A DNA stretch of 52,059 nucleotides. Source: Armatimonadota bacterium. Its GTDB lineage: Bacteria; Armatimonadota; UBA5829; JAUSEB01. The position numbers and the translations under genes are program-made. The DNA lies in the NCBI GenBank assembly GCA_030649165.1, contig JAUSGG010000060.1:1-52059 (forward strand), written 5' to 3'. Shown one piece after another: positions 30,238 to 43,830 of the stretch (positions are counted from its first letter, which is position 1; each line of letters begins with the position of its first letter). Below the pieces are notes generated by a model that saw only the letters and a program-made list of their open reading frames with translations, was not told the origin of the DNA and searched no databases.

Positions 30238-32484
30238 CTACAACCTGACGAGCAGACTCCCCATCTCCCCCGCCTTCACCTTGCCTTCCACAATCACAAC
30301 TCTGGATTTGAAGAATGAACCGGCGGAAACCTTGCCTTTGTACGGCTTTCCGTCCAGCAGAATCTCCTTTTCCCCCTTCCCTTCCGGCAGTATCGTCTGG
30401 TAGCTGACGGTCACCGGATGGGAGTTGTGGTTGGTGACTTCGAGCGTTGCCGACGATTCCTCCCGCTTGTATGACGCCGTGAACGAGCCTTCGCCCAGGC
30501 GGAAGCGCTCCCAGGTGAAGTCGCTCGACGGGCTGAATGGGCGGAATTCGAGCGCGCGGGAGGGGGCGTCGTAGCGCAGGCCAAGGAACTGGGAGATGAA
30601 AAGGCAACTGAACACGCCCGACGCCCAGCCGCATTTGCCGAGCCCGCGGGCCGGCTGGTCGTTGATCCGGTAGGTCGTTTTCCACTGGGTAAATGGCCAC
30701 CACCAGATGCTTCCGTCGAGATCAGTGAGCTTGCGTATCTTCGTCAGATAGCCGTCCACGCCGCTCATACTCTCCGCGTCGCTTGTCGCGGCCAGGCCGG
30801 AGACGTACCCGGGGAACGTGGTCCCGTAGCTGTTGGGGTCGGCCCAGACGATGCCGCCGAGGGTCTTCATGTAGAGTATGTTGTGCTCACTGAGCGCGAA
30901 CTTCTTGAGGTTGTGCAGCGCGGGATCGTCGTAAGTCGTGTAGCCGTAGAATGAAGCCAGTGTCGTGTCGCTTTCCTCCCCGTCGTGGGCCATGTAAGGA
31001 ACCGGGGCGGGATAATCGACGCCTTTGACGGCCACGTGCTTGAGGGGCAGATTGCCGTCCTCGTTGATGCCCTCCACGTACTGTTTGCCGAATGGACCGT
31101 CGATGATATTGTGCGCGATAAGCTCCTTCTTGATCTTCTCCGCCGCGCCGCGGTAGGCGGACGCTGTCTTGGTGTCGGCGTAGATATCCTCAAGAATGCG
31201 GGCGAAGGAGTTGAGGCAATAGTATGCGAAGATATTCGATCCAGTGTGATAGTCGCCCGCCGAGCCGCCGTCGGAGATGAACCGGCTGGCGAGCAGGAAC
31301 GCCTTCTCCCTTCGCAAACTGAGCGCTCCGTCAAGAAGCGCCCTGCACTTCTTCGCCACCTCCGGATGGTCGAGGAAAAACTGCTTGTCCGCGGTGGTGG
31401 AATAGTAGATCCCGGCCATCGAGACGGGCGCCAGCGAGTTGCTGATGGAGTGGTCGATCCCGCCGGGGAACCTGCCCTTGTACCTCACGCTCCATTTGAG
31501 GAACCAGAGGATGCCGCGCCGGGCCAATTCAGGATCCAGCATGACCAGAGGGAGATATGAATAGTGGAAATCCTTCATCCACATCTCGTCTCTCAGCGGG
31601 TAAGAACCCCAACTGTTTTCGCCCGCGATCTCGCCATTTGCGGCCATGACGGTCGCGTTGAAACACTGGTGGACACACCGCTCCAGGAACTCGCCTGCGT
31701 AAACGTCCTGGGGCATATCCAGCTTGCCGGTCAGACTTCGGAAATAGGTAAGGGTTGCGCGGAGCCATTCGAGGCTGCTCTGCCTGGAAAGAACGTTGAG
31801 GGCTTCTTGAGCGGGAACGGCGGCGAGAATCAACGGCAGCCAGAACGACTTGCCAGGCCTGATCTCATACTGCATCTCGGGTTTTGCCTCGATACCGTCG
31901 GCCGCCATCACGGTGATTCTTTCGCTGCTTTCTAGCGAGTAGACCACACCTTTGATCTTCTCTCCCGACACGTTTTTGATGAAAAGCCCGTAGATCGCGG
32001 CGCCGGGCCTCTCCGAACCGTCCGCGGAGATCGGAGCAAAGGCAATAAGCTTGACCGCGGCTCGTTCGTCGACAAAGAACTCGGTAATGGGCAAAACATT
32101 GCCCAGCAGGGAGGTTTTGTAATCCCCGACGAGCTGCTTCAGGTCGTAGGTCTTGTCGCCAATCTTGAGGCGGAACGAAAGGTCTTTGGTCTGATGGTAA
32201 TGCTTCTGCGTCCAGACGCCGGGAAAGGGGTGGTCATAGGGATAAGTCTCTCCATACGATATGAAGTTGAGAATCGTGCCCTTCAGGTCGAGGTTCATCA
32301 GGATTCGGTTGTTGCCGATATCGAAGGTCAGGTCCTCGTCCAAGCGTTTGCCGAACAAGCTGACCTTATCACCGTAATCGAGGACGCCGTTGCGAATTGA
32401 TGCCCAGAACATCCGCCCGCACTCGCCGGCGAGGGCTTCTTCGACGGTCTTGAACGAGAAATGTGCAACAGGTTGTTTGTTCAA
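30238..32484 (-). CDS. Six-hairpin glycosidase-like protein, probably cytoplasmic
   Basis: A 748-residue protein without a signal peptide. An N-terminal beta-sandwich (about 1-260) precedes an (alpha/alpha)6-type catalytic region (about 265-640: AGENSWGSYPLRDEMWMKDFHYSYLPLVMLD, FPGGIDHSISNS, AHDGEESDTTLASFYGY, DGSIWWWPF) and a C-terminal beta domain (about 650-748). This layout is that of inverting glycosidases or phosphorylases of the GH15/GH65/GH94/GH125 type; the exact family is not clear. Candidate acids are the Asp/Glu in RDEMWMKD and DGEESD. The start follows a weak AGGGAGG-like site (gap to the sulfatase about 115 nt). It is probably transcribed after the sulfatase and acts on an oligosaccharide. 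Confidence 0.72.
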   Translation of the reverse strand: MNKQPVAHFSFKTVEEALAGECGRMFWASIRNGVLDYGDKVSLFGKRLDEDLTFDIGNNRILMNLDLKGTILNFISYGETYPYDHPFPGVWTQKHYHQTKDLSFRLKIGDKTYDLKQLVGDYKTSLLGNVLPITEFFVDERAAVKLIAFAPISADGSERPGAAIYGLFIKNVSGEKIKGVVYSLESSERITVMAADGIEAKPEMQYEIRPGKSFWLPLILAAVPAQEALNVLSRQSSLEWLRATLTYFRSLTGKLDMPQDVYAGEFLERCVHQCFNATVMAANGEIAGENSWGSYPLRDEMWMKDFHYSYLPLVMLDPELARRGILWFLKWSVRYKGRFPGGIDHSISNSLAPVSMAGIYYSTTADKQFFLDHPEVAKKCRALLDGALSLRREKAFLLASRFISDGGSAGDYHTGSNIFAYYCLNSFARILEDIYADTKTASAYRGAAEKIKKELIAHNIIDGPFGKQYVEGINEDGNLPLKHVAVKGVDYPAPVPYMAHDGEESDTTLASFYGYTTYDDPALHNLKKFALSEHNILYMKTLGGIVWADPNSYGTTFPGYVSGLAATSDAESMSGVDGYLTKIRKLTDLDGSIWWWPFTQWKTTYRINDQPARGLGKCGWASGVFSCLFISQFLGLRYDAPSRALEFRPFSPSSDFTWERFRLGEGSFTASYKREESSATLEVTNHNSHPVTVSYQTILPEGKGEKEILLDGKPYKGKVSAGSFFKSRVVIVEGKVKAGEMGSLLVRL

Positions 32485-33994: not shown

Positions 33995-34134
33995 AGCAAT
34001 CCTCCTTTTGTCATGCTCTCCTTCCCTTTCGCTTCTCGCGGTTCCTGCCTTGCGGATAAATCGAACTCCGGCAGGAAGACAGACGGTTAGGCCATAAGAG
34101 GCACTTGAGCAGACGCAGGAAACGAGGAGATCAT

Positions 34135-36096
34135 ATGGATTTTCGGCAACTGGAAAAGACTTCTCCGCACGAGTTCTGGTACGATTTGAGGCACCAACTG
34201 CAGCGGTTCATTTACGAGCGCTCCAACGAAGCGTTCGCCGCTGGAGACGCCGCCCGCGACGCAATAAGGACTCCCGCTGAACTGGAATCCCGCCGCGCCT
34301 TTCTTCGAGACAGGTTCATTGAGAATCTCGGCGGACTTCCGCCAGGCGACACGCCGCTGAACGCCCGGACAACGGGAATAGTCGAGCACGATGGTATCAA
34401 GATCGAGAAGATCATCTTCGAGTCCCGCCCGGGAACGTTCGTCACGGCCAACCTTTACCTGCCGCCGGACGTCACGTCGCCGCGAGGGGCGGTCTTGTTC
34501 CTGTGCGGACATCACGAGGCGGCGAAGCAAGGACCGGAGTATCAGATAGTCTGCCAGTATCTCGCACACGCGGGTCTCGTCGTTCTTGCGCAGGACCCAA
34601 TCGGCCAGGGAGAGCGGTTCAGTTACTACGAGAAGGAGTTGGGCGGGACCACCGTTACGTGGGGAGTGACGGAGCACGGCTACGCGGGGGCGCAGTGCCT
34701 GCCCCTTGGCGACTCACTTGGCCGCTATTTCGTGCACGACTCGATGCGGAGCGTAGACTACCTAATGACGCGCAAGGAAGTAGACCCGAACAAGATAGGC
34801 GTTACAGGCAATTCCGGCGGCGGCACGCAGACGAGCCTGATGATGGTATGCGACCCGCGAATCGCCTGCGCGGCCCCGACGACTTTCATCATGAACAGGC
34901 AAAGCTACATGTACGTGGGCTGCGGGCAGGACTGCGAGCAGATTTGGACGGGCATGTCCGCCCTGGGCTTCGACCACGAGGATATCCTGCTGGCAATGGC
35001 GCCGAAGCCGGTGCGCGTCCTCGCGGTCACATCGGACTTCTTCCCCATCGAGGGCACGCGGCGGACGGTGGAGCGGTGCAAGCGGCTGTGGGAGTTGTAC
35101 GGCAAGGGCGACCTCGTGGACATCATAGAAGACAATTCGACTCACACGTACACGCGGAACCTCGCGGCGGCGGCGACTGAGTTCTTCTCAAGGCATTTGC
35201 TGGGCAGGGAGGTGTCGCCGGACGGCAGCGGTATCCAGGAGATCGAGGGGTCGCGGCTGTGGTGCACGGCGTTTGGGCAGGTCAGGGGCGAGATCGCCGG
35301 GGCGCGGGCGGTTTACGAGGAGAACGTCGATCGCGTTGCCGAGATCCAGAAGCGGAACTCCGGCGTTCCCGATGCCCAGCGCAAGGAGAAGGGCCTGGGT
35401 TGGCTCAGAGAGCGGGTGTTCGCCGGTCGAAAGCCCTTCGATCTGAATCCTCGGTTTTACGATCAGAGCCAGGTGGATGATGTCAAGATCGAGATGTGCT
35501 TCTGGTGGGCGCAGGAGGGCCTTTTCAACCACGGGTTCGCGTTCCGCGATTTCAGGCTGAAGGGGCGAGACCTGCCGGTCACACTGGCCGTCTGGGATGG
35601 CGGCACGACGTGCCTTCAGCCGCACGCCCGTTGGATCCGCAAGACGTGCGCCGCCGGAATAGCGGTTGTGGTGTTGGACGTGTCGGGCGACGGTCCGCTG
35701 CTGCCGTACCGGTTCAATGGAGGACGGGACGAGCTCGACTACTACAGCTCGATCTTCACGCTGGGCGACGATCTGATCTGGCTGAACGACAGCCTGGCGG
35801 CCATGCGCACCTACGACACGCTGCGCGCGCTGGACATGATAACGGCTTGGCCGGGTCTGGACGCCGGCGAAATAACGGGCTACGCCCACGGGCTGCACGG
35901 GCTGTACCTGCAGCTTGCAGCGGGCATGGACAAGAGAATAAAGGACGTCGAGGTGGTTGGCGGCATCGGCAGTTACGCCGAGTGGGTCCGCTCTCGACAC
36001 TATGACTCGTTTGACGTGGCCAGCTACACGCTGCCGGGTGTGCTGCAGTATTTTGACCTGCCTGATTTGGAGAGGTGGAGAAAGGGCACAGCTTAG
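34135..36096 (+). CDS. Two-domain alpha/beta-hydrolase (acetyl-esterase-like), second domain degenerate
   Basis: A 653-residue protein without a signal peptide. Domain 1 (about 75-375) is an acetyl-xylan-esterase-like alpha/beta-hydrolase: oxyanion region LFLCGHH, nucleophile elbow GNSGG (Ser227), the Asp in TSDFFPIEG and the His in NSTHTYT. Domain 2 (about 430-650) repeats the fold more loosely (VTLAVWDGG, AGIAVVVLDVSGDG), but at the elbow position it reads GYAHG, with Ala where the nucleophile Ser belongs, so it is probably inactive and structural or binding. GAGGAG lies 5 nt before ATG 34135; the frame open to 34105 is not needed. Probably the first gene of a plus-strand trio with GH4 and a second esterase, removing acyl groups from glycans. 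Confidence 0.8.
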   Translation: MDFRQLEKTSPHEFWYDLRHQLQRFIYERSNEAFAAGDAARDAIRTPAELESRRAFLRDRFIENLGGLPPGDTPLNARTTGIVEHDGIKIEKIIFESRPGTFVTANLYLPPDVTSPRGAVLFLCGHHEAAKQGPEYQIVCQYLAHAGLVVLAQDPIGQGERFSYYEKELGGTTVTWGVTEHGYAGAQCLPLGDSLGRYFVHDSMRSVDYLMTRKEVDPNKIGVTGNSGGGTQTSLMMVCDPRIACAAPTTFIMNRQSYMYVGCGQDCEQIWTGMSALGFDHEDILLAMAPKPVRVLAVTSDFFPIEGTRRTVERCKRLWELYGKGDLVDIIEDNSTHTYTRNLAAAATEFFSRHLLGREVSPDGSGIQEIEGSRLWCTAFGQVRGEIAGARAVYEENVDRVAEIQKRNSGVPDAQRKEKGLGWLRERVFAGRKPFDLNPRFYDQSQVDDVKIEMCFWWAQEGLFNHGFAFRDFRLKGRDLPVTLAVWDGGTTCLQPHARWIRKTCAAGIAVVVLDVSGDGPLLPYRFNGGRDELDYYSSIFTLGDDLIWLNDSLAAMRTYDTLRALDMITAWPGLDAGEITGYAHGLHGLYLQLAAGMDKRIKDVEVVGGIGSYAEWVRSRHYDSFDVASYTLPGVLQYFDLPDLERWRKGTA

Positions 36097-36191: not shown

Positions 36192-37544
36192 GTGAAGGTC
36201 GCGATTATCGGCGGTGGCAGCTATCTGTGGGCGCTTGGATTCGTGCGGCAGTTCGTCAATTCCAAGCGTCTGCGCGACGTCCAGGTCGTTCTCATGGACA
36301 TCGATCCCGAGGCGCTCGATCTGGTCGGGAAGGCCGCGGAACTGTACAATCGCCAACACGGCGCGCCGATCAGGCTGGACACTTCGACAAACCACGACGA
36401 GGCCTTCGATGGGGCGGATTACGTGCTCACCTGCATCTCCACCGGCGGGCTCGACTCGATGCGCTTCGATCTGGAAATCCCCGAAAAGTACGGCATCTAC
36501 CACCCGGTGGGCGACACGGTAGGCCCGGGCGGCTGGATGCGCGCCGTGCGCAATATTCCTGTGTTCTACGATTTCGCGGCCAGGATGAAGAAGCTCTGCC
36601 CGCACGCATGGCTGATCAACATGACGAATCCTCTGACGCCCCTCACGCGCTTGCCGCGGCGGGACTTCGGCATAAGGACCATCGGCATGTGCCCCGGCGT
36701 GCAGGAGACGGTCGATCAACTCTCCGGCCTAGCCTGCATCGACAAAGGCGCTCCGATCGATTACGTCAACACCGGCATCGATCACGGCTCGTGGTTCACG
36801 GAACTGCGGGCCGGCGAGGTCGACGTCCTCCAGCGTCTCAAGGACATGGGCTATTGCGAAAGCGACGACAGCCGGTTCATGCACGGAACGCCTCGTGAGG
36901 AATGGCCGCCTGACGCTGCCGCAATGCGCGCCGCGTTCGCCGTCTGGCGCGAGATCGGCTACATACCCAGCATCAGGGACCGCCACTGCACGGAGAATTG
37001 GCCGTGGTTCCTGAACGTCCAGCCGGATCCCCTGCCCTACGGAATCGTGCGGACGTTCATTGCCGAGCGGCAACAGGGCCGGAAGGACCGGAAGGAATGC
37101 CTGGAGCGCTACGTGCGGACCGAGGACGAGGCGGTCCTGGGCGAACTCGGCCACGGCGATGATCCGATTTGCGAAGTGATCGAATGCCTGGAGGGGCATG
37201 ATTCGTTTATGTGGTCGGCGAACTATATGAACATCGGCCAAATCCCCGGCTTCCCTGAAGGATCGGTGGTGGAGACAAGGTGCCGCTTCGACGCCGCGGG
37301 CGCGCATCCGCTCTGCTCGCCGATGCCCGATCTTCTCAAGACGCTGGTCCTGCCGCAGGTCATCCGGCAGGAGGCCATACTGGATATCGCGCTGACCGGA
37401 TCGTTCGACGAGCTGGTCGCGCTGATGACCACCGACCCGCTCTGTTCCCGCCTGCCGATGGGCAAGTGCCGGGAAATGGTCCGGGAGATGCTGACCGCCG
37501 AGCGGCAGTGGATACAGAACCCGCGGCTGTTGCTCTTCGACTAG
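36192..37544 (+). CDS. GH4-family NAD/Mn-dependent alpha-glycosidase
   Basis: A 450-residue cytoplasmic glycosidase of family GH4 (alpha-glucosidase, alpha-galactosidase or alpha-galacturonidase type), which works by transient oxidation with NAD and a divalent metal. The Rossmann motif MKVAIIGGGSYLWA starts the protein; N146 lies in NMTNPLTP, the metal Cys167 in GMCPGVQET and the metal His198 in NTGIDHGSW, all at expected spacings. AGGAGG is 6 nt before GTG 36192. It sits between two esterase genes, so it probably cleaves deacylated oligosaccharides after uptake. The exact sugar cannot be read from the motifs; GMCPG instead of the common CHS/CHG may reflect specificity. Confidence 0.92.
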   Translation: MKVAIIGGGSYLWALGFVRQFVNSKRLRDVQVVLMDIDPEALDLVGKAAELYNRQHGAPIRLDTSTNHDEAFDGADYVLTCISTGGLDSMRFDLEIPEKYGIYHPVGDTVGPGGWMRAVRNIPVFYDFAARMKKLCPHAWLINMTNPLTPLTRLPRRDFGIRTIGMCPGVQETVDQLSGLACIDKGAPIDYVNTGIDHGSWFTELRAGEVDVLQRLKDMGYCESDDSRFMHGTPREEWPPDAAAMRAAFAVWREIGYIPSIRDRHCTENWPWFLNVQPDPLPYGIVRTFIAERQQGRKDRKECLERYVRTEDEAVLGELGHGDDPICEVIECLEGHDSFMWSANYMNIGQIPGFPEGSVVETRCRFDAAGAHPLCSPMPDLLKTLVLPQVIRQEAILDIALTGSFDELVALMTTDPLCSRLPMGKCREMVREMLTAERQWIQNPRLLLFD

Positions 37545-37644: not shown

Positions 37645-38703
37645 ATGACACTACGAAACCTGAGCCCCCAGGCGATGTTCGAAGCGCTGGCCAACGAGCA
37701 TCGACCGTCTCTGGCCTTTGCCGGCAGTACCAAGGCGGAATTCGAGGCGTGGAAGGCGGAAGCCTTTCCCAAGGCGATGGCGACCCTCGGACGATTCCCG
37801 GAGCGCGTCCCGCTGAACCCGGAACTGCTCGGTGAATGGGAGCACGACGGCCTGCGCAAGCAGCGCTGGGTCATCGACGTGGGCAAGCACATCTCAGCCA
37901 CGTTCCTGGTCAACATCCCGGGCGATTTGCGCGATGGCGAGAAGCGGCCCACCATCTGCTGCTGGCACGGCCACGGCCCGTTCGGCAAGGAGCCTATCAT
38001 GGGAAACGACTCCAGCCCCGAACTCCGCGCGGCCATCGAGTACCACAACTACAACTATGGCCACCAGATGGCCAAGAAGGGATTCGTGACGTTCGCTATC
38101 GACTGGATTGGCGGAGGCGAGCGCTGCGACCACAACAAGCCGTTTTACCGCTGGCACGAGTTCGGCAAGGATTGGTGCAACGTCTACTACATGCACGCGA
38201 CCATGCTGGGGATGACCTCCATCTCCATCAACGTCACGCACGGCATGGCCGCGACCGACTTCGCCTGCTCGCTGCCTTTCGTCGATGCCGACCGGCTGGG
38301 CGTAATGGGCCTCAGCGGCGGCGGCGTCATGACTCTCTGGAGCGCCCTCTGCGACGAGAGGTTCAAGGCGGCGGAGATCATGGGCTACAGCGATCTTTGG
38401 GCGATTATGGGCGTGCGCGATATCAACTATTGCGGAATGCAAATAGCGCCGGGGCTGTTCAGCCTGTTCGACATGCCGGATCTGCAGGGTCTCATTGCCC
38501 CGCGGCCATTGCTGGTTGACATTGCCGCCTATGACACTTGTTTCGTCATAGATGGCGCGATGCGGTGCTATCGCCAGGTCGAGAGGATATACGCCGCCGC
38601 GGGCGCGTCAGACCGGTTGGACCTCGACCTGTTCCCGAAGGAACACGCATGGGGCGGCAACAAGTCGGAAGCGTTTTTCAGGCGGCATATTGACGGCTCG
38701 TGA
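37645..38703 (+). CDS. Alpha/beta-hydrolase, probable carbohydrate esterase
   Basis: A 352-residue single-domain alpha/beta-hydrolase of the acetyl-xylan-esterase/dienelactone-hydrolase-like superfamily, without a signal peptide. The oxyanion region is ICCWHGHG, the nucleophile elbow MGLSGGG with Ser224, the acid likely in LLVDIAAYD, and the His in FPKEHAWGG. A helical N-terminal cap of about 70 residues precedes the core. It is shorter than, and not closely similar to, the two-domain hydrolase upstream. The 100-nt gap from GH4 holds a partial repeat copy and an AGTACGGAG site before ATG 37645. The substrate is inferred only from the locus. Confidence 0.82.
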   Translation: MTLRNLSPQAMFEALANEHRPSLAFAGSTKAEFEAWKAEAFPKAMATLGRFPERVPLNPELLGEWEHDGLRKQRWVIDVGKHISATFLVNIPGDLRDGEKRPTICCWHGHGPFGKEPIMGNDSSPELRAAIEYHNYNYGHQMAKKGFVTFAIDWIGGGERCDHNKPFYRWHEFGKDWCNVYYMHATMLGMTSISINVTHGMAATDFACSLPFVDADRLGVMGLSGGGVMTLWSALCDERFKAAEIMGYSDLWAIMGVRDINYCGMQIAPGLFSLFDMPDLQGLIAPRPLLVDIAAYDTCFVIDGAMRCYRQVERIYAAAGASDRLDLDLFPKEHAWGGNKSEAFFRRHIDGS

Positions 38704-38763: not shown

Positions 38764-41217
38764 CTATTTCTTCGCGTACAAGAACGGCCTCTCGTATATG
38801 CCGTTGGCGCCGTAGTACTCGTCGTTGCACAGCACGCGGAGAGCGATTACGTTCTTCCCCGGCTGCAAGGAAGGTGTGATATCAATGTCCACTTCATGCG
38901 GACGAGAGAAGCATGATACATATTCACTGCGTCCGGCGTACGTGCCGTTGACGTAGACCCACACCTGGTCTACCACCGCGGGACAGAACAGGTGAGCTTG
39001 TTTGCCTTGCTCTACCGCGGGGACGTCAACAGCGAACCGGTACCAGCCGTAGCCCTGGTAGGGATGACCGTCGGCAGTCATCATGGGAAGGCCTTCGTCG
39101 CTCTTCAGATTCTGGTTCTGCCAGCCGGTGTACGTGCCGCATAGCTGCCATTTGGAGTCGTCGTAGTCCGGCTCCATCCACCTGTCAGAGCGGCCAACGT
39201 CGAATCGGTCGCTGCTGAACCGCGCGGTCTCAGGAAGAGGAGCGAGCATACTGCCCTCTTTACCATTGACCTTTTTCGCATATCGCGTCATGCGGTCGGC
39301 CTCCCAGTCCATGTTGTAAGGACCGGGCAACCAGCCGAAGAACTCGTTGATCTTCTTCATCTGCTGCTTCACGGCAAGCATCTGCCGCATAAGGCTGGCG
39401 GCGTCGGCGAAACGCAGTTCCTGCTTTGCCTTGAGGGAGTCGATGTAGAGGCGCAGGTGGTCGAATATCAGACGCTCCATGCGGACGTGCGTTTTGTCCT
39501 TCTCCGTTCCGCCCGCGGCTTCCGCTCGCGCGATATCGTCCGCCAGTCGAGCCATGACCTGTGGCGTGTAGATGACACACAGGATCACGTCTTCGTGGCC
39601 ATGATAAGGCGCAGAATCGAACGCGTTCTCCAGCGTCTCGTAGAAGTCGCGCAAGGGCTTGGCGGCCGGACCGAACCACTTCCGGTAGTAGTCGGCGAGG
39701 ATGGCGTCGACGTCCGCTTCGGTGTTCCACTCCAGGGCCGCGCGAACGACGTATGTGGGAATGCCGAGCTGCGAGATGTCGGTGAACTCAAGATCGTTGA
39801 AACCGAGGCAGCCGGTGTCCCTGGTCATAGGGATGTTCGCCCGAATACGCTTCACCATTGGGGTAACCGTGTCTTTGGACACGAGCATGGTGTAGTTGTA
39901 GCCGTAGATCCAGACCTTGTCCGTAAGCTTGCACCATCGCTTCAGAAGGCTGTACTGCCTGCGATTCTGCCAGCACTTGGGGTCGTCGTACCGGTGGATA
40001 GTGCAGCCGACTATGTCAGCGAACATGATGGTGAGGTTGTTGTATTTGTTGAAGTCGGGGATGTTCTCCGGCGGGACGTAGCGATTGGCGTACCCGTTTG
40101 TGGCTATCAGATAGCCGGGATACTTCTGTCCGGTTGCGTTCAGCAGCCCGTTGACGAAGAAGAAATATTCGTTTCCGGTCAGGTATTCGGCGACAGGATT
40201 GCCCTGGGCGTTGATCGTCGTGCAGTCCGAGTAGCGAATAGACATCTTGCGGCACAGTTCGCACTCACAGGTGGGCATGCCGTCGTCGGGGGAGAAGGCC
40301 ATCACCTGGTGGCCACTCTTGGCGTTGTCGTCTATTCTGTCCATCAACGCGTCGAGCATTCGCGGCCGGCCTGCGTATTTCGGGTCGTTCCTGCGCAGTT
40401 CATCGGCCATGCAGGGCAAGCCGGCGCTGCGCGTGCCATCCGGCTGCAGGGCAAACCATTCCGGGCGCTCCTTTATCTTGTCTCTCGGCAAAAGATAGTA
40501 AAGCGAGCTGTCGGCGGGGAGGCCGAACCAGTCGGCGCTGCGTGGGTTCATCTTGTTGCGGATCAGCCACAGATCGCGCGCTTCGAGCATTGCCTGCGTG
40601 CCCCAGGCGCCGTGGTAACGAACTACGAGGCTGGGATGCTGAGTAACAGACATCTCGGGAACAGTCAGAGTGGAGGACTTGGGCACGACCTCGCCATATT
40701 CGCCGGGGGTGAACCACCGAACACCAAGACGGTTGAGCAATTCGTAGGTGGCGTAGCGGGTGCCGAAATAGAGGGAATTCCCTACAGTCTCCCACCCATG
40801 CGGCCCGGGGGCGTCGACCTTCTTGCCCGCTGGGATCACGGCGTCGTTGCCGGCCAGCACAAGCGTGTCGTCTTTGCAGTAGATGACGAAGCCTTCCTCC
40901 CGAAACGCCCGTGTGAGGCCCTCGGGGATTTTCAGGCCGGGGATGGCGTCGGTCAGCTTGCCGCGGCCAACCAGGACCCTGGCGCCCGGAATACTCTCAG
41001 ACTCGGCGTGAATCTCCAGCTCAGCGCCGCTGATCATCTTCACGTACGTCCGGAGTTCCTGAGCTGCTATCTTCGCGCCTTCACTCGGCTTGTCGGCCAG
41101 GATAATACTGCACGCCGGCTTGCCATCCTTGACCAGCGTGAAGGACGCCGCCACCGATAGCGAGACGGCCCCGAGTAAGGCGGCTGGGATGATGACTCCG
41201 TATCGGATCCATTTCAT
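38764..41217 (-). CDS. DUF4838 secreted glycosidase-like protein, copy 1
   Basis: An 817-residue exported protein. The signal peptide is 1-25. Residues about 25-150 are an alpha-glucuronidase-N-type beta domain (KPSEGAKIAAQELRTYVKMISG). About 150-640 is the DUF4838 barrel (YFGTRYATYELLNRLGVRWFTPGEYGE, FSPDDGMPTCECELCRK, FADIVGCTIHRYDDPKCW). About 670-817 is a jelly-roll carbohydrate-binding domain (GRSDRWMEPDYDDSKWQ, YGWYRFAVDVP, VYVNGTYAGRS). The CxCxxC in the barrel is shared with the paralogue and may bind metal. DUF4838 proteins are found in polysaccharide loci, but activity is largely unproven. It follows its paralogue by 15 nt, so the two form one operon. Confidence 0.88.
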   Translation of the reverse strand: MKWIRYGVIIPAALLGAVSLSVAASFTLVKDGKPACSIILADKPSEGAKIAAQELRTYVKMISGAELEIHAESESIPGARVLVGRGKLTDAIPGLKIPEGLTRAFREEGFVIYCKDDTLVLAGNDAVIPAGKKVDAPGPHGWETVGNSLYFGTRYATYELLNRLGVRWFTPGEYGEVVPKSSTLTVPEMSVTQHPSLVVRYHGAWGTQAMLEARDLWLIRNKMNPRSADWFGLPADSSLYYLLPRDKIKERPEWFALQPDGTRSAGLPCMADELRRNDPKYAGRPRMLDALMDRIDDNAKSGHQVMAFSPDDGMPTCECELCRKMSIRYSDCTTINAQGNPVAEYLTGNEYFFFVNGLLNATGQKYPGYLIATNGYANRYVPPENIPDFNKYNNLTIMFADIVGCTIHRYDDPKCWQNRRQYSLLKRWCKLTDKVWIYGYNYTMLVSKDTVTPMVKRIRANIPMTRDTGCLGFNDLEFTDISQLGIPTYVVRAALEWNTEADVDAILADYYRKWFGPAAKPLRDFYETLENAFDSAPYHGHEDVILCVIYTPQVMARLADDIARAEAAGGTEKDKTHVRMERLIFDHLRLYIDSLKAKQELRFADAASLMRQMLAVKQQMKKINEFFGWLPGPYNMDWEADRMTRYAKKVNGKEGSMLAPLPETARFSSDRFDVGRSDRWMEPDYDDSKWQLCGTYTGWQNQNLKSDEGLPMMTADGHPYQGYGWYRFAVDVPAVEQGKQAHLFCPAVVDQVWVYVNGTYAGRSEYVSCFSRPHEVDIDITPSLQPGKNVIALRVLCNDEYYGANGIYERPFLYAKK

Positions 41218-41232: not shown

Positions 41233-43716
41233 CTACTGCTTCTTCGCGTACAAAAACGGCCTCTCGTATAGCCCGTTGGCGCCGAAGTACTCTTCCAGGC
41301 AGAGCACACGTACGGCGATGACGTTCTTACCCGGCTTTAGGAAGGAAGTGACGTCAAGATCCATCTCCTGCGGCCGGAACCACGCCTGCTGATAATTGGT
41401 GCGCCCGGCGTACTGGCCGTTGACCCACGCCCATCCCTGGTTGACGAACGCCGGCAGGAAGAGCCTAGCCTGCTTGCCTTGAGGCACAGTTGGAACATCG
41501 ACCGTAAAGCGATACCAGCTATAGCCGCGATATGGGTGGCCGTCCTTCGTCAGCAGCGACAGACCGTCTTCATCCTTCAGCGCCTGACTCTGCCAACCCG
41601 TCGTCGTGCCGCAAATCTGCCATTTCGCGTCGTCGTAGTCCGGTTCCATCCATCGGTCGGAACGGCCCACGTCGTGCCTGTCCGTGCGGAACCGGGCCAT
41701 CTCCGGCAATGGAGCGAGCATATTGCCCTCTTTGCCGTCGGTCTTGGCCGCCAGACGATGCATACGTTTGGCCTCCCAATCCATCCCGTAGGGAGTCGGT
41801 GACCAACCGAAGCAGTTGCTGATCTTGCGCATCCGCAGCTTCACCGCCCACATTCTCTCCATCAGTTTGGCGGCGTCGGCAAAGCGCAGGTCCTTTTTGG
41901 CCTGCAGGGAATCCACGTACATGCGCAGATGGTCGAACCCTAGCCGCTCGACCAGCACATGCCCCTTTTCTGTGTCGGAGCCGGCCGTGGATTCCGCTCG
42001 CGCTATGTCATCCGCGAGCCGCGCCATGAGTTTGGGCGTGTAGACCTCCGTCAGGATCACGTCCTCGTGGCCGTGGCAGGAAACGGAGTCGAACGCAGTT
42101 TCGAGCGCCTCGTAGTAGTCCTTCATGGGAGCGGCAGCGGGGCCAAACCACTTTTCATAGAAGTCGGCGAGTATGGCGTCAACATCGGCGCGCGTGTCCC
42201 ATTCCAGAGCGAAGCGCGCAACATACGTAGGCAGGCCCAACTGGGACAAATCGATCCACTCCTGATCGCGGAAGCCTATTGCCCCGGCCTCTTTGATCAT
42301 CGGGATGTTGGTCCGTATTCGCTTCGTCATCGGCGTGATGGTGCCCTTGGATACGAGAATGGTGTAGTTGTAACCGTAGACCCACACCTTATCGCTGATC
42401 TTGCACCATTGCTTGAGCATGTTGTACTGCTGGCGCATCTGCCAGCACTTGGGATCGTCATAGCGATGAATGGTGCAGCCTACAATGTCCGCGAACATGA
42501 TCATCAGGTTCTTGTGACGGTTAAAGCCAGGCGAGACCTCGGGCGGAGCGTAACGGTTCGCGTAACCGTTCGTAGCGATGATGTGTTCGGGGTACTTAGC
42601 GCCTACCGCGTCCAGAAGGCCGTTCACGAAGAAGAAATACTCCTGTGATGTCAGATACTCCGGAACCGGATCGCCCGGCGTGCCAGGCTCCTGTCCGGGG
42701 GGAGGGGCGGCGCAGTATCCATCGGAAAAGCGAAAAGACGTTTTGCGGCACGTATCACACAGGCAGGCGGGCGTTCCGTCGTCCGGAGAAAAGTCGGTGG
42801 TGCGAGCGCCCGTAGCCGCGCGCTCGCAGATATTCGCCGAGATAGTATCGAGCAAGCGAGGCTGACCCGCGTACTTCGGGTCGTTGCGGCGCAGTTCGTC
42901 GGTCATGCAAGGCATACCCCCCAGCCGCGTGCCATCCGCCTGCAAGGCGAACCATTCCGGATGGACCTTTACCTGGTCTCGCGGCATGAGGCCGTTCAGC
43001 GATCCGTCGGCGGGAACGCCAAACCACATGGGGCTGCGCGGGTTCATCCTGTTGCGCACCATCCACATGTCTCGCTCATCCTGCATGGCGGCTCCGGCCT
43101 CTCCGCCACAGGCAAACATGGCTCGAACCGGAAAGTCGGGGCGCTCAGTCACGGACACCTCGGCAACCTGAAGTATGGCCGATCTGGGGACGAACTCACC
43201 ATACTCACCGGGTGCAAACCAACGGACGCCCAGCCGGTTGAGAAGATCATAGACGGCATATCGGGTACCCAGATACATCGAGTTTCCAAGGCACGAACCG
43301 CTCGGATCGGGATTACTCAGTATCCTGGTGTCGATTTCCGTGTCATTGCCCGCCAAGACGAGCGTATCGCCCGCGCAGTGGATGACATAGCCTTCCTCGC
43401 GGAATGCGGGGGTGAGGCCGTCAGGAATCTTCAGCCCGGAGATCGCGTCGGTCAGGCGGCTGCGGCCAACCAGTATCTTCGCGCCCGTAACATTCTCTGC
43501 GTCACTTCGTATCTCCAACCTGGCGCCGCTGATCTTCTCCACATATTCTTGCAGTTCCTGTGCGGCGGATTTGGCGTTGTTACTCGGCTTCGCGGCTATG
43601 ACGATAGCGCACGTCGGTTTGCCGTCCCTTACAAGCGTAAACTGCGCTCCGGTGGAAGCCGAGACGCCGGCGAGCAATAAGGCTGATATGATCAGCCCGC
43701 GGAACAACCACTTCAA
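41233..43716 (-). CDS. DUF4838 secreted glycosidase-like protein, copy 2
   Basis: An 827-residue paralogue of the next gene along its whole length, with the same signal peptide, alpha-glucuronidase-N-type domain, DUF4838 barrel and C-terminal jelly roll (GRSDRWMEPDYDDAKWQ). The barrel has PACLCDTCRK, keeping the CxCxxC. It differs by a short insert (PGQEPGTPGDPVPEY) and many substitutions, so the duplication is not recent. The start is TTG 43716, which aligns with the ATG of copy 1 (LKWLFRG against MKWIRYG) and has AGGAGG 8 nt upstream; the longer frame to 43830 is rejected. It is the first gene of a two-gene operon with its own promoter candidate at 43802-43830. Confidence 0.88.
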   Translation of the reverse strand: MKWLFRGLIISALLLAGVSASTGAQFTLVRDGKPTCAIVIAAKPSNNAKSAAQELQEYVEKISGARLEIRSDAENVTGAKILVGRSRLTDAISGLKIPDGLTPAFREEGYVIHCAGDTLVLAGNDTEIDTRILSNPDPSGSCLGNSMYLGTRYAVYDLLNRLGVRWFAPGEYGEFVPRSAILQVAEVSVTERPDFPVRAMFACGGEAGAAMQDERDMWMVRNRMNPRSPMWFGVPADGSLNGLMPRDQVKVHPEWFALQADGTRLGGMPCMTDELRRNDPKYAGQPRLLDTISANICERAATGARTTDFSPDDGTPACLCDTCRKTSFRFSDGYCAAPPPGQEPGTPGDPVPEYLTSQEYFFFVNGLLDAVGAKYPEHIIATNGYANRYAPPEVSPGFNRHKNLMIMFADIVGCTIHRYDDPKCWQMRQQYNMLKQWCKISDKVWVYGYNYTILVSKGTITPMTKRIRTNIPMIKEAGAIGFRDQEWIDLSQLGLPTYVARFALEWDTRADVDAILADFYEKWFGPAAAPMKDYYEALETAFDSVSCHGHEDVILTEVYTPKLMARLADDIARAESTAGSDTEKGHVLVERLGFDHLRMYVDSLQAKKDLRFADAAKLMERMWAVKLRMRKISNCFGWSPTPYGMDWEAKRMHRLAAKTDGKEGNMLAPLPEMARFRTDRHDVGRSDRWMEPDYDDAKWQICGTTTGWQSQALKDEDGLSLLTKDGHPYRGYSWYRFTVDVPTVPQGKQARLFLPAFVNQGWAWVNGQYAGRTNYQQAWFRPQEMDLDVTSFLKPGKNVIAVRVLCLEEYFGANGLYERPFLYAKKQ

Positions 43717-43801
43717 ATGGATTACCTCCTGATGCGTTGTGTTGGCCCACAAATGCGTGGCGATGCGAAGCGTTTTCCGAGGGAGTGTCGGAGTCCGATG
43801 G

Positions 43802-43830
43802 CGTATAGCCTCGCGCATACTGATGGGCAA
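43802..43830 (-). promoter_or_regulatory. Candidate promoter of the DUF4838 pair
   Basis: On the minus strand TTGCCC (43830-43825), 17 bp, TATACG (43807-43802), downstream of the hairpin ending the previous gene. Each box matches the consensus at about four of six positions. Confidence 0.4.

Follow-up and report, generated by a model that had tools for sequence, protein, structure and literature searches.

What does an esterase do with a second hydrolase domain whose nucleophile is gone? The window, by which we mean the whole 52,059-nucleotide stretch of DNA analysed here, holds a gene for a protein with two alpha/beta-hydrolase domains in tandem. The question is wider than this gene. Proteins often annotated simply as 'acetylxylan esterase' carry a second hydrolase domain from which the nucleophile has been lost, and which selection nevertheless seems to maintain. 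The anatomy of the window protein is firm: a CE19-like esterase is joined to a dead and truncated twin domain. What the twin contributes is a matter of graded likelihood.

The gene and its relatives

The frame opens with an ATG at 34135 and closes with a stop codon at 36094-36096 in the translation of the window (Table 1). We regard it as a real gene because full-length relatives exist. By eye, no signal-peptide-like segment is seen in residues 1-60.

Table 1. Features of the tandem hydrolase gene and of the gene after it, in window positions
Feature	Position	Strand	Evidence
ORF, 653 aa, tandem alpha/beta-hydrolase protein	34135..36096	+	translation; full-length relatives at 47-61% identity
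Shine-Dalgarno-like GAGGAG, 5 bases upstream of ATG	34124..34129	+	sequence reading
N-terminal helical stretch, residues 1-60	34135..34314	+	model secondary structure; sequence
Domain 1, intact alpha/beta-hydrolase, residues 61-359	34315..35211	+	6goc profile; Pfam Peptidase_S9; VIA
Nucleophile elbow G225-N-S227-G-G, residues 225-229	34807..34821	+	Ser in 69/69 aligned proteins
Catalytic Asp301 codon	35035..35037	+	D in 66/69; aligns with BT1017 Asp352
Catalytic His337 codon	35143..35145	+	H in 68/69, one gap; aligns with BT1017 His388
Linker, residues 360-430, partly aligned to BT1017 linker	35212..35424	+	profile match reaches residue 484 of the 6goc chain
Domain 2, degenerate and truncated alpha/beta-hydrolase, residues 431-653	35425..36093	+	profile-profile; PDB hits; VIA
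Degenerate elbow A584-H-G586-L-H, Gly586 in Ser position	35884..35898	+	Gly in 62/69, Ser in 1
Next gene, GH4 glycosidase (context)	36192..37544	+	Pfam; 3fef (LplD alpha-galacturonidase, the closest solved protein) at E 2.2e-45, second hit at 3.2e-30

The relatives were aligned in a set of 50 and a set of 69. The 69, the window protein included, are long proteins of 539 to 736 aa picked for similarity to it. Dropped before the set of 50 were a long paralogue from the gene's own genome (L002), two single-domain-sized sequences from that genome too (L003 and L004), a gene in two frames (L009) and two fragments (L018 and L036). Dropped before the set of 69 were duplicate genes (L068, L070, L072, L073 and L076), a sequence identical to L035 (L069) and five with incomplete coverage or a late match start (L081, L084, L086, L091 and L093). 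The paralogue L002 (C257), a 34% relative of the first half, has a GCSMG elbow in a reading frame of roughly 1000 aa.

An intact first half

Pfam places Peptidase_S9 above its cut-off on the protein and AXE1 just below: against the AXE1 gathering cut-off of 21 bits the whole protein scores 19.8, and the first half alone scores 21, at the cut-off. The nearest solved protein is 6goc, the structure of BT1017, with an E-value of 8e-12 in a single-sequence search. With a 25-sequence family profile, 6goc rises to 7.7e-40, against 5.1e-13 for the next chain, a CE7 esterase.

The GNSGG motif and the full triad that the original prediction gave to the first domain are confirmed, at residues 225-229 and at S227, D301 and H337. 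These three align with Ser282, Asp352 and His388 of BT1017, as numbered in the published account of that enzyme (PMC7939467). The conservation of S227 is partly expected because the aligned proteins were picked by similarity to the window protein. The three proteins lacking D301 all have Ser there and form one divergent group (L044, L055 and L092).

In the low-confidence full-length model, residues 2-370 align by VIA to 3nuz, 3g8y and 6goc with Z of 17.4-18.3. CE15 esterases (OtCE15A, 8qcl) match the domain 1 fold with Z of about 15.

A CE19 member can be taken as a module homologous to BT1017 with a Ser-Asp-His triad, and domain 1 has both, by the profile match and the aligned triad. On this sequence evidence, the assignment of the first half as an intact, CE19-related serine esterase is well supported. 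DUF3826, the C-terminal domain of BT1017, has no match in the window protein at E <= 1, but varied architectures are reported for CE19, so this domain perhaps is not required.

The metal site also departs from BT1017, in which two His and two Cys are described as the zinc ligands (PMC7939467). Of the 69 proteins, 68 retain H126 and 49 retain H181. The place of the zinc ligands Cys315 and Cys317 is taken in the window's clade by QDxEQ, and GGCxCEN is kept in 10 of 50 proteins. Cys263 and Cys267 at that place belong to the window protein only within its clade. The two-His, two-Cys site is thus absent, though it is a feature of BT1017 and perhaps no defining one of CE19. Our guess would be a metal site with carboxylate ligands in this clade.

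The enzyme may instead be an acetyl-xylan-type deacetylase and not a uronate methylesterase, which we consider possible but doubtful. Domain 1 matches CE7 and AXE1 weakly in the single-sequence and Pfam searches. Among the 11 plasmid records covering at least 80% of the query, six are annotated as acetylxylan esterase and three as prolyl oligopeptidase family. However, annotation names are no assays, 6goc stands far ahead of the CE7 chains in the profile search, and AXE1 stays below its cut-off for the whole protein.

A second half of hydrolase descent

The two halves resemble each other as profiles. In hhalign, whose E-values are for one comparison, they align over 257 columns with a probability of 99.85% locally and over 269 columns with 100% globally. 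With the VIA matches of each half, this makes both of them homologous hydrolase domains.

A profile of 50 such second halves hits the PDB esterases 7qjm (1.1e-13) and 6agq (1.4e-11). In Pfam searches with each of the 50 by itself, AXE1 (best 3.3e-10) and Abhydrolase_1 (best 3.3e-6) are matched by 9 apiece at E <= 0.1. The window's own domain 2 by itself has no Pfam match.

The models agree in part. The best among the VIA matches listed for residues 419-652 of the full-length model is the CE7 esterase 7xmj (Z 13.2, 204 aligned, 3.6 A). The mean pLDDT of this low-confidence model is 54.4 and its pTM 0.45, and its placement of the two halves is unreliable. A model of domain 2 only, residues 426-653, has a mean pLDDT of 48.3. 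With it, Foldseek gives no match at E <= 0.001; the best, at 0.033, is a CE15 esterase, followed by unrelated proteins such as DegV proteins.

The homology of domain 2 is carried by the sequence profiles, with the models in a supporting part. A second half predicted as something other than a hydrolase fold would have spoken against the tandem layout. This did not occur, although confidence is low in both models.

Loss of the second nucleophile

The original prediction read the second elbow as GYAHG, with the Ser replaced by Ala. By our alignments, this register is two residues off and we reject it: G225-N226-S227 faces A584-H585-G586, with G225 opposite Ala584, which holds the place of the first Gly of GxSxG, and S227 opposite Gly586. 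Because the elbow is A584-H585-G586, it is Gly586 that replaces the nucleophile. The tandem hydrolase with an inactive second half therefore stands, by the profile-profile alignment, the PDB profile hits and the structural match of residues 419-652, while the residue named as the Ser replacement does not.

The models fit the new register. In the full model the strands before the elbows end at 226 and 585, with pLDDT <50 over residues 225-274. In the model of domain 2 only, the strand ends at 585 and a helix starts at 588, which puts G586 within the turn. H126, which aligns with the oxyanion and zinc His of BT1017, faces Gly489.

GYAHG as such is not kept. Its leading G582 is Gly in 1 of the 21 proteins of the window's clade. 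In 15 close sequences, the window protein included, conservation is 93% at both A584 and G586 and 47% at H585. Within the clade, 19 members carry Gly and two carry Ala at position 586, and 20 carry Ala and one carries Thr at position 584.

Nor is the loss confined to the clade. Where the second nucleophile position of the 69 proteins departs from Gly, it is Lys, Ala, Arg or Asp in six and Ser in L029 only. The second elbow of L029 reads GMSNAG, and its sister rows carry Gly (L030) and Asp (L028), so this Ser may be chance or a reversal.

Since the nucleophile is lost in nearly all long relatives, domain 2 is probably a pseudo-enzyme. The statement holds for the long relatives sampled and not for the superfamily, because the 69 proteins cover long relatives, and weaker matches of single-domain size are common in the search of 61 genomes. 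A live first half with a pseudo-enzyme second half is well supported.

Erosion of the C-terminus

Domain 2 ends before the part that would bear the Asp and the His, and the chain stops 12 residues past D641. On the tree of domain 1 the window gene sits within a 21-member clade (support 100/100) whose members are all short-ended. They have 4 to 18 residues past D641, whereas 37 of 48 proteins outside the clade have at least 46. Several of these longer proteins carry an APRPL-like strand past D641. A frameshift or assembly artefact was considered for the short domain 2 and rejected, as all 21 clade members, from different genomes, end in this way.

When an ending of <=25 residues after D641 is scored as short, four changes of this label are needed over the tree as a whole, and well-supported branches force three. 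The C-terminal shortening therefore probably occurred more than once.

Two of the sequences carry taxonomic information. The clade member L035, from an Armatimonadaceae MAG, is identical in the aligned columns to that of a same-phylum genome, and the window is therefore probably from Armatimonadota. L034, a partial sequence from a MAG labelled Bacillota, groups with sequences of the window's own order, which may reflect a wrong label or a transfer.

On plasmids, nine haloarchaeal records match 85-97% of the query at 31-37% identity and a Spirosoma one matches at 28%. Among viral contigs, 67 stretches fitted a pattern and none was confirmed. A broken relative occurs in Paenibacillus cremeus (L036, 4956-5791): the N-terminal part is followed by a change of frame, and a stretch of domain 1 then joins directly onto the last part of domain 2, most of what should lie between being absent.

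Gene neighbourhood

The gene is followed by a GH4 glycosidase gene (Table 1). We searched 24 further neighbourhoods at E <= 1e-8, some of them on short contigs, 10 with ORFs of at least 250 aa and 14 with ORFs of at least 200 aa. GH4 adjoins the copy in only one of them, that of the broken Paenibacillus cremeus gene. This search misses distant relatives: a Gfo/Idh/MocA gene that Pfam detects in L096 went unmatched. No fixed gene partner was found across the 24 besides the window.

Genes for MR/MLE sugar-acid dehydratases adjoin L035 and L057, and L034 neighbours an ABC sugar transporter and a Gfo/Idh/MocA gene. Heparinase II/III genes lie near two of the four plasmid relatives examined, both haloarchaeal. 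Other neighbours vary, with GH94, GH35, GH20, PhyH, fucosidase, transketolase, TPR, TRCF, TauE, mannosyltransferase and others, and the Halostagnicola and Spirosoma copies sit among unrelated genes. The neighbourhoods lean towards acidic sugars without proving them.

Further genes of the window were noted. Two genes downstream of the tandem hydrolase, 37645-38703 (+) encodes a single-domain hydrolase of Abhydrolase_7, a distant relative of domain 1 at 29% identity. Adjacent genes at 38764-41217 and 41233-43830 (-) both have DUF4838 and a GH2-type sugar-binding domain, and look like a tandem duplication. An ORF of 748 aa at 30238-32484 (-) has no Pfam family above cut-off and a weak hint of GH125 (E 0.055).

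What the second domain may do

Our main reading, to which we give a probability of about 60%, is that the protein is a cytoplasmic CE19-related esterase acting on acidic-sugar esters beside GH4, with domain 2 as an intramolecular structural partner. The substrates of domain 1 would be acidic sugars or oligosaccharides bearing small esters (methyl or acetyl), cleaved by the usual Ser-His-Asp acyl-enzyme mechanism. Removal of the ester would precede the action of an exo-glycosidase, for example the neighbouring GH4 enzyme.

Domain 2 would have come from duplication or fusion within the same superfamily, and its nucleophile would have disappeared ahead of the divergence of the long relatives sampled. 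In the window's branch its C-terminal strands would have been lost as well. It may have been retained as the half of a pseudo-dimer, stabilising domain 1 or shaping access to its pocket. We infer the cytoplasmic location, the ester type, the substrate, the time of the nucleophile loss and the role of domain 2.

Selection suggests that the domain is in use. In four pairs with dS <1, dN/dS is 0.16-0.31 in domain 2 versus 0.07-0.09 in domain 1, three of the pairs sharing three sequences and one having very few changes. In six distant pairs (dS >1) it is 0.39-0.61 versus 0.29-0.44. By these values domain 2 is maintained, less strictly than domain 1. Purifying selection means only that domain 2 does something. 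The constant presence of domain 2 in the clade is no independent argument, because the clade members were chosen for full coverage.

Domain 2 could also be a glycan- or ligand-binding module, whose pocket no longer catalyses yet binds and delivers the oligosaccharide to domain 1. In 15 close sequences, conservation is somewhat higher at its 49 positions opposite the active-site loops of domain 1 than at the other 167 (0.676 versus 0.606), a borderline difference for a loop set of our own choice (one-sided permutation p 0.047). W487, D488 and G490, at the expected place of the oxyanion loop, are at 93-100% in these sequences. Many conserved positions, however, are plain fold residues, and the extra domain of BT1017, DUF3826, is reported not to bind RG-II by ITC (PMC7939467). 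We think this role unlikely.

Alternatively, domain 2 might cap or complete the active site of domain 1 through residues placed over its entrance, so that domain 1 alone would be inactive. The purifying selection in the close pairs would fit this. So would the search of 61 genomes, where among the matches listed none of at least 50% identity was a whole gene ending after domain 1; the short ones at that level come from contig fragments (G001) and from a gene split over two frames (G017). Yet single-domain-sized frames of about 300-450 aa are common among the weaker matches there, the model is unreliable as to the relative placement of the halves, and the catalytic module of BT1017 is described as working without such a domain (PMC7939467). 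Capping seems distinctly unlikely to us.

With comparably long odds against it, the domain 2 pocket might serve as a sensor or binding site for acidic sugars that switches or steers domain 1. If true, the long CE19 relatives would be widespread esterases that each carry their own pseudo-enzyme regulator, with members in Armatimonadota, Bacteroidota, haloarchaea and others.

Lastly, domain 2 might be no more than a functionless relic in decay, with its C-terminus already lost in the clade. This would suit the short endings and the fewer invariant sites (16 of 223, where domain 1 has 88 of 300, in 16 sequences of which two are identical), but is very improbable with dN/dS well below 1 in the four close pairs.

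Comparison with known systems

Pseudo-enzymes are known in this superfamily. Neuroligin is an alpha/beta-hydrolase without a working nucleophile, but is not the second half of an active enzyme. The structural partner that we prefer for domain 2 would differ in being joined to its live twin.

BT1017 of Bacteroides thetaiotaomicron (PDB 6GOC), a pectin methylesterase, is the one characterised member of CE19. It shares with the window protein the alpha/beta-hydrolase fold, the triad, the elbow and part of the linker that follows. It acts ahead of the alpha-galacturonidase BT1018, and the window gene adjoins a GH4 gene of that kind. The two differ in the C-terminal domain, which is DUF3826 in BT1017 and the degenerate hydrolase here, and in the signal peptide, which BT1017 has and which by eye is not seen here.

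CE7 acetyl-xylan esterases (7xmj, 6agq and 1l7a) have the fold common to both halves but are single-domain, and match the family profile more weakly than 6goc. CE15 glucuronoyl esterases (OtCE15A, 8qcl) are like domain 1 in overall fold and act on uronate esters, but have a single catalytic domain and also a weaker sequence match than 6goc.

Closest in layout are two-domain CE19 proteins. The original prediction did not recognise the layout from standard acetyl esterases, but many relatives have it, and a protein of this kind appeared in print in 2023 (PMC10483417). This is TBR22_41900 of Luteitalea sp. TBR-22, with 634 residues: a CE19 domain at 1-380 is followed by a reduced alpha/beta-hydrolase domain with fewer strands. 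Its second domain, known there from an AlphaFold model, is without the zinc site, and the authors proposed a variant of the fold, whose role or target may differ. D6B99_08585 is a further such protein, and domain 1 of both is said to retain the two zinc His (PMC10483417).

Both have the layout of the window protein, TBR22_41900 is also of similar length, and by layout both are putative members of the same family. The two-domain CE19 layout is hence already published and not peculiar to the window gene. The published passages on these proteins do not take up nucleophile loss in the second domain, its spread, truncation or selection (PMC10483417).

New here are the nucleophile loss shared by almost all of the long relatives sampled, the erosion of the C-terminus and the signs of selection on domain 2. 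They add to the published two-domain case that the second domain is probably no second enzyme. Moreover, the long relatives with their shrinking C-terminus make a natural series for asking how a dead half serves its live twin.
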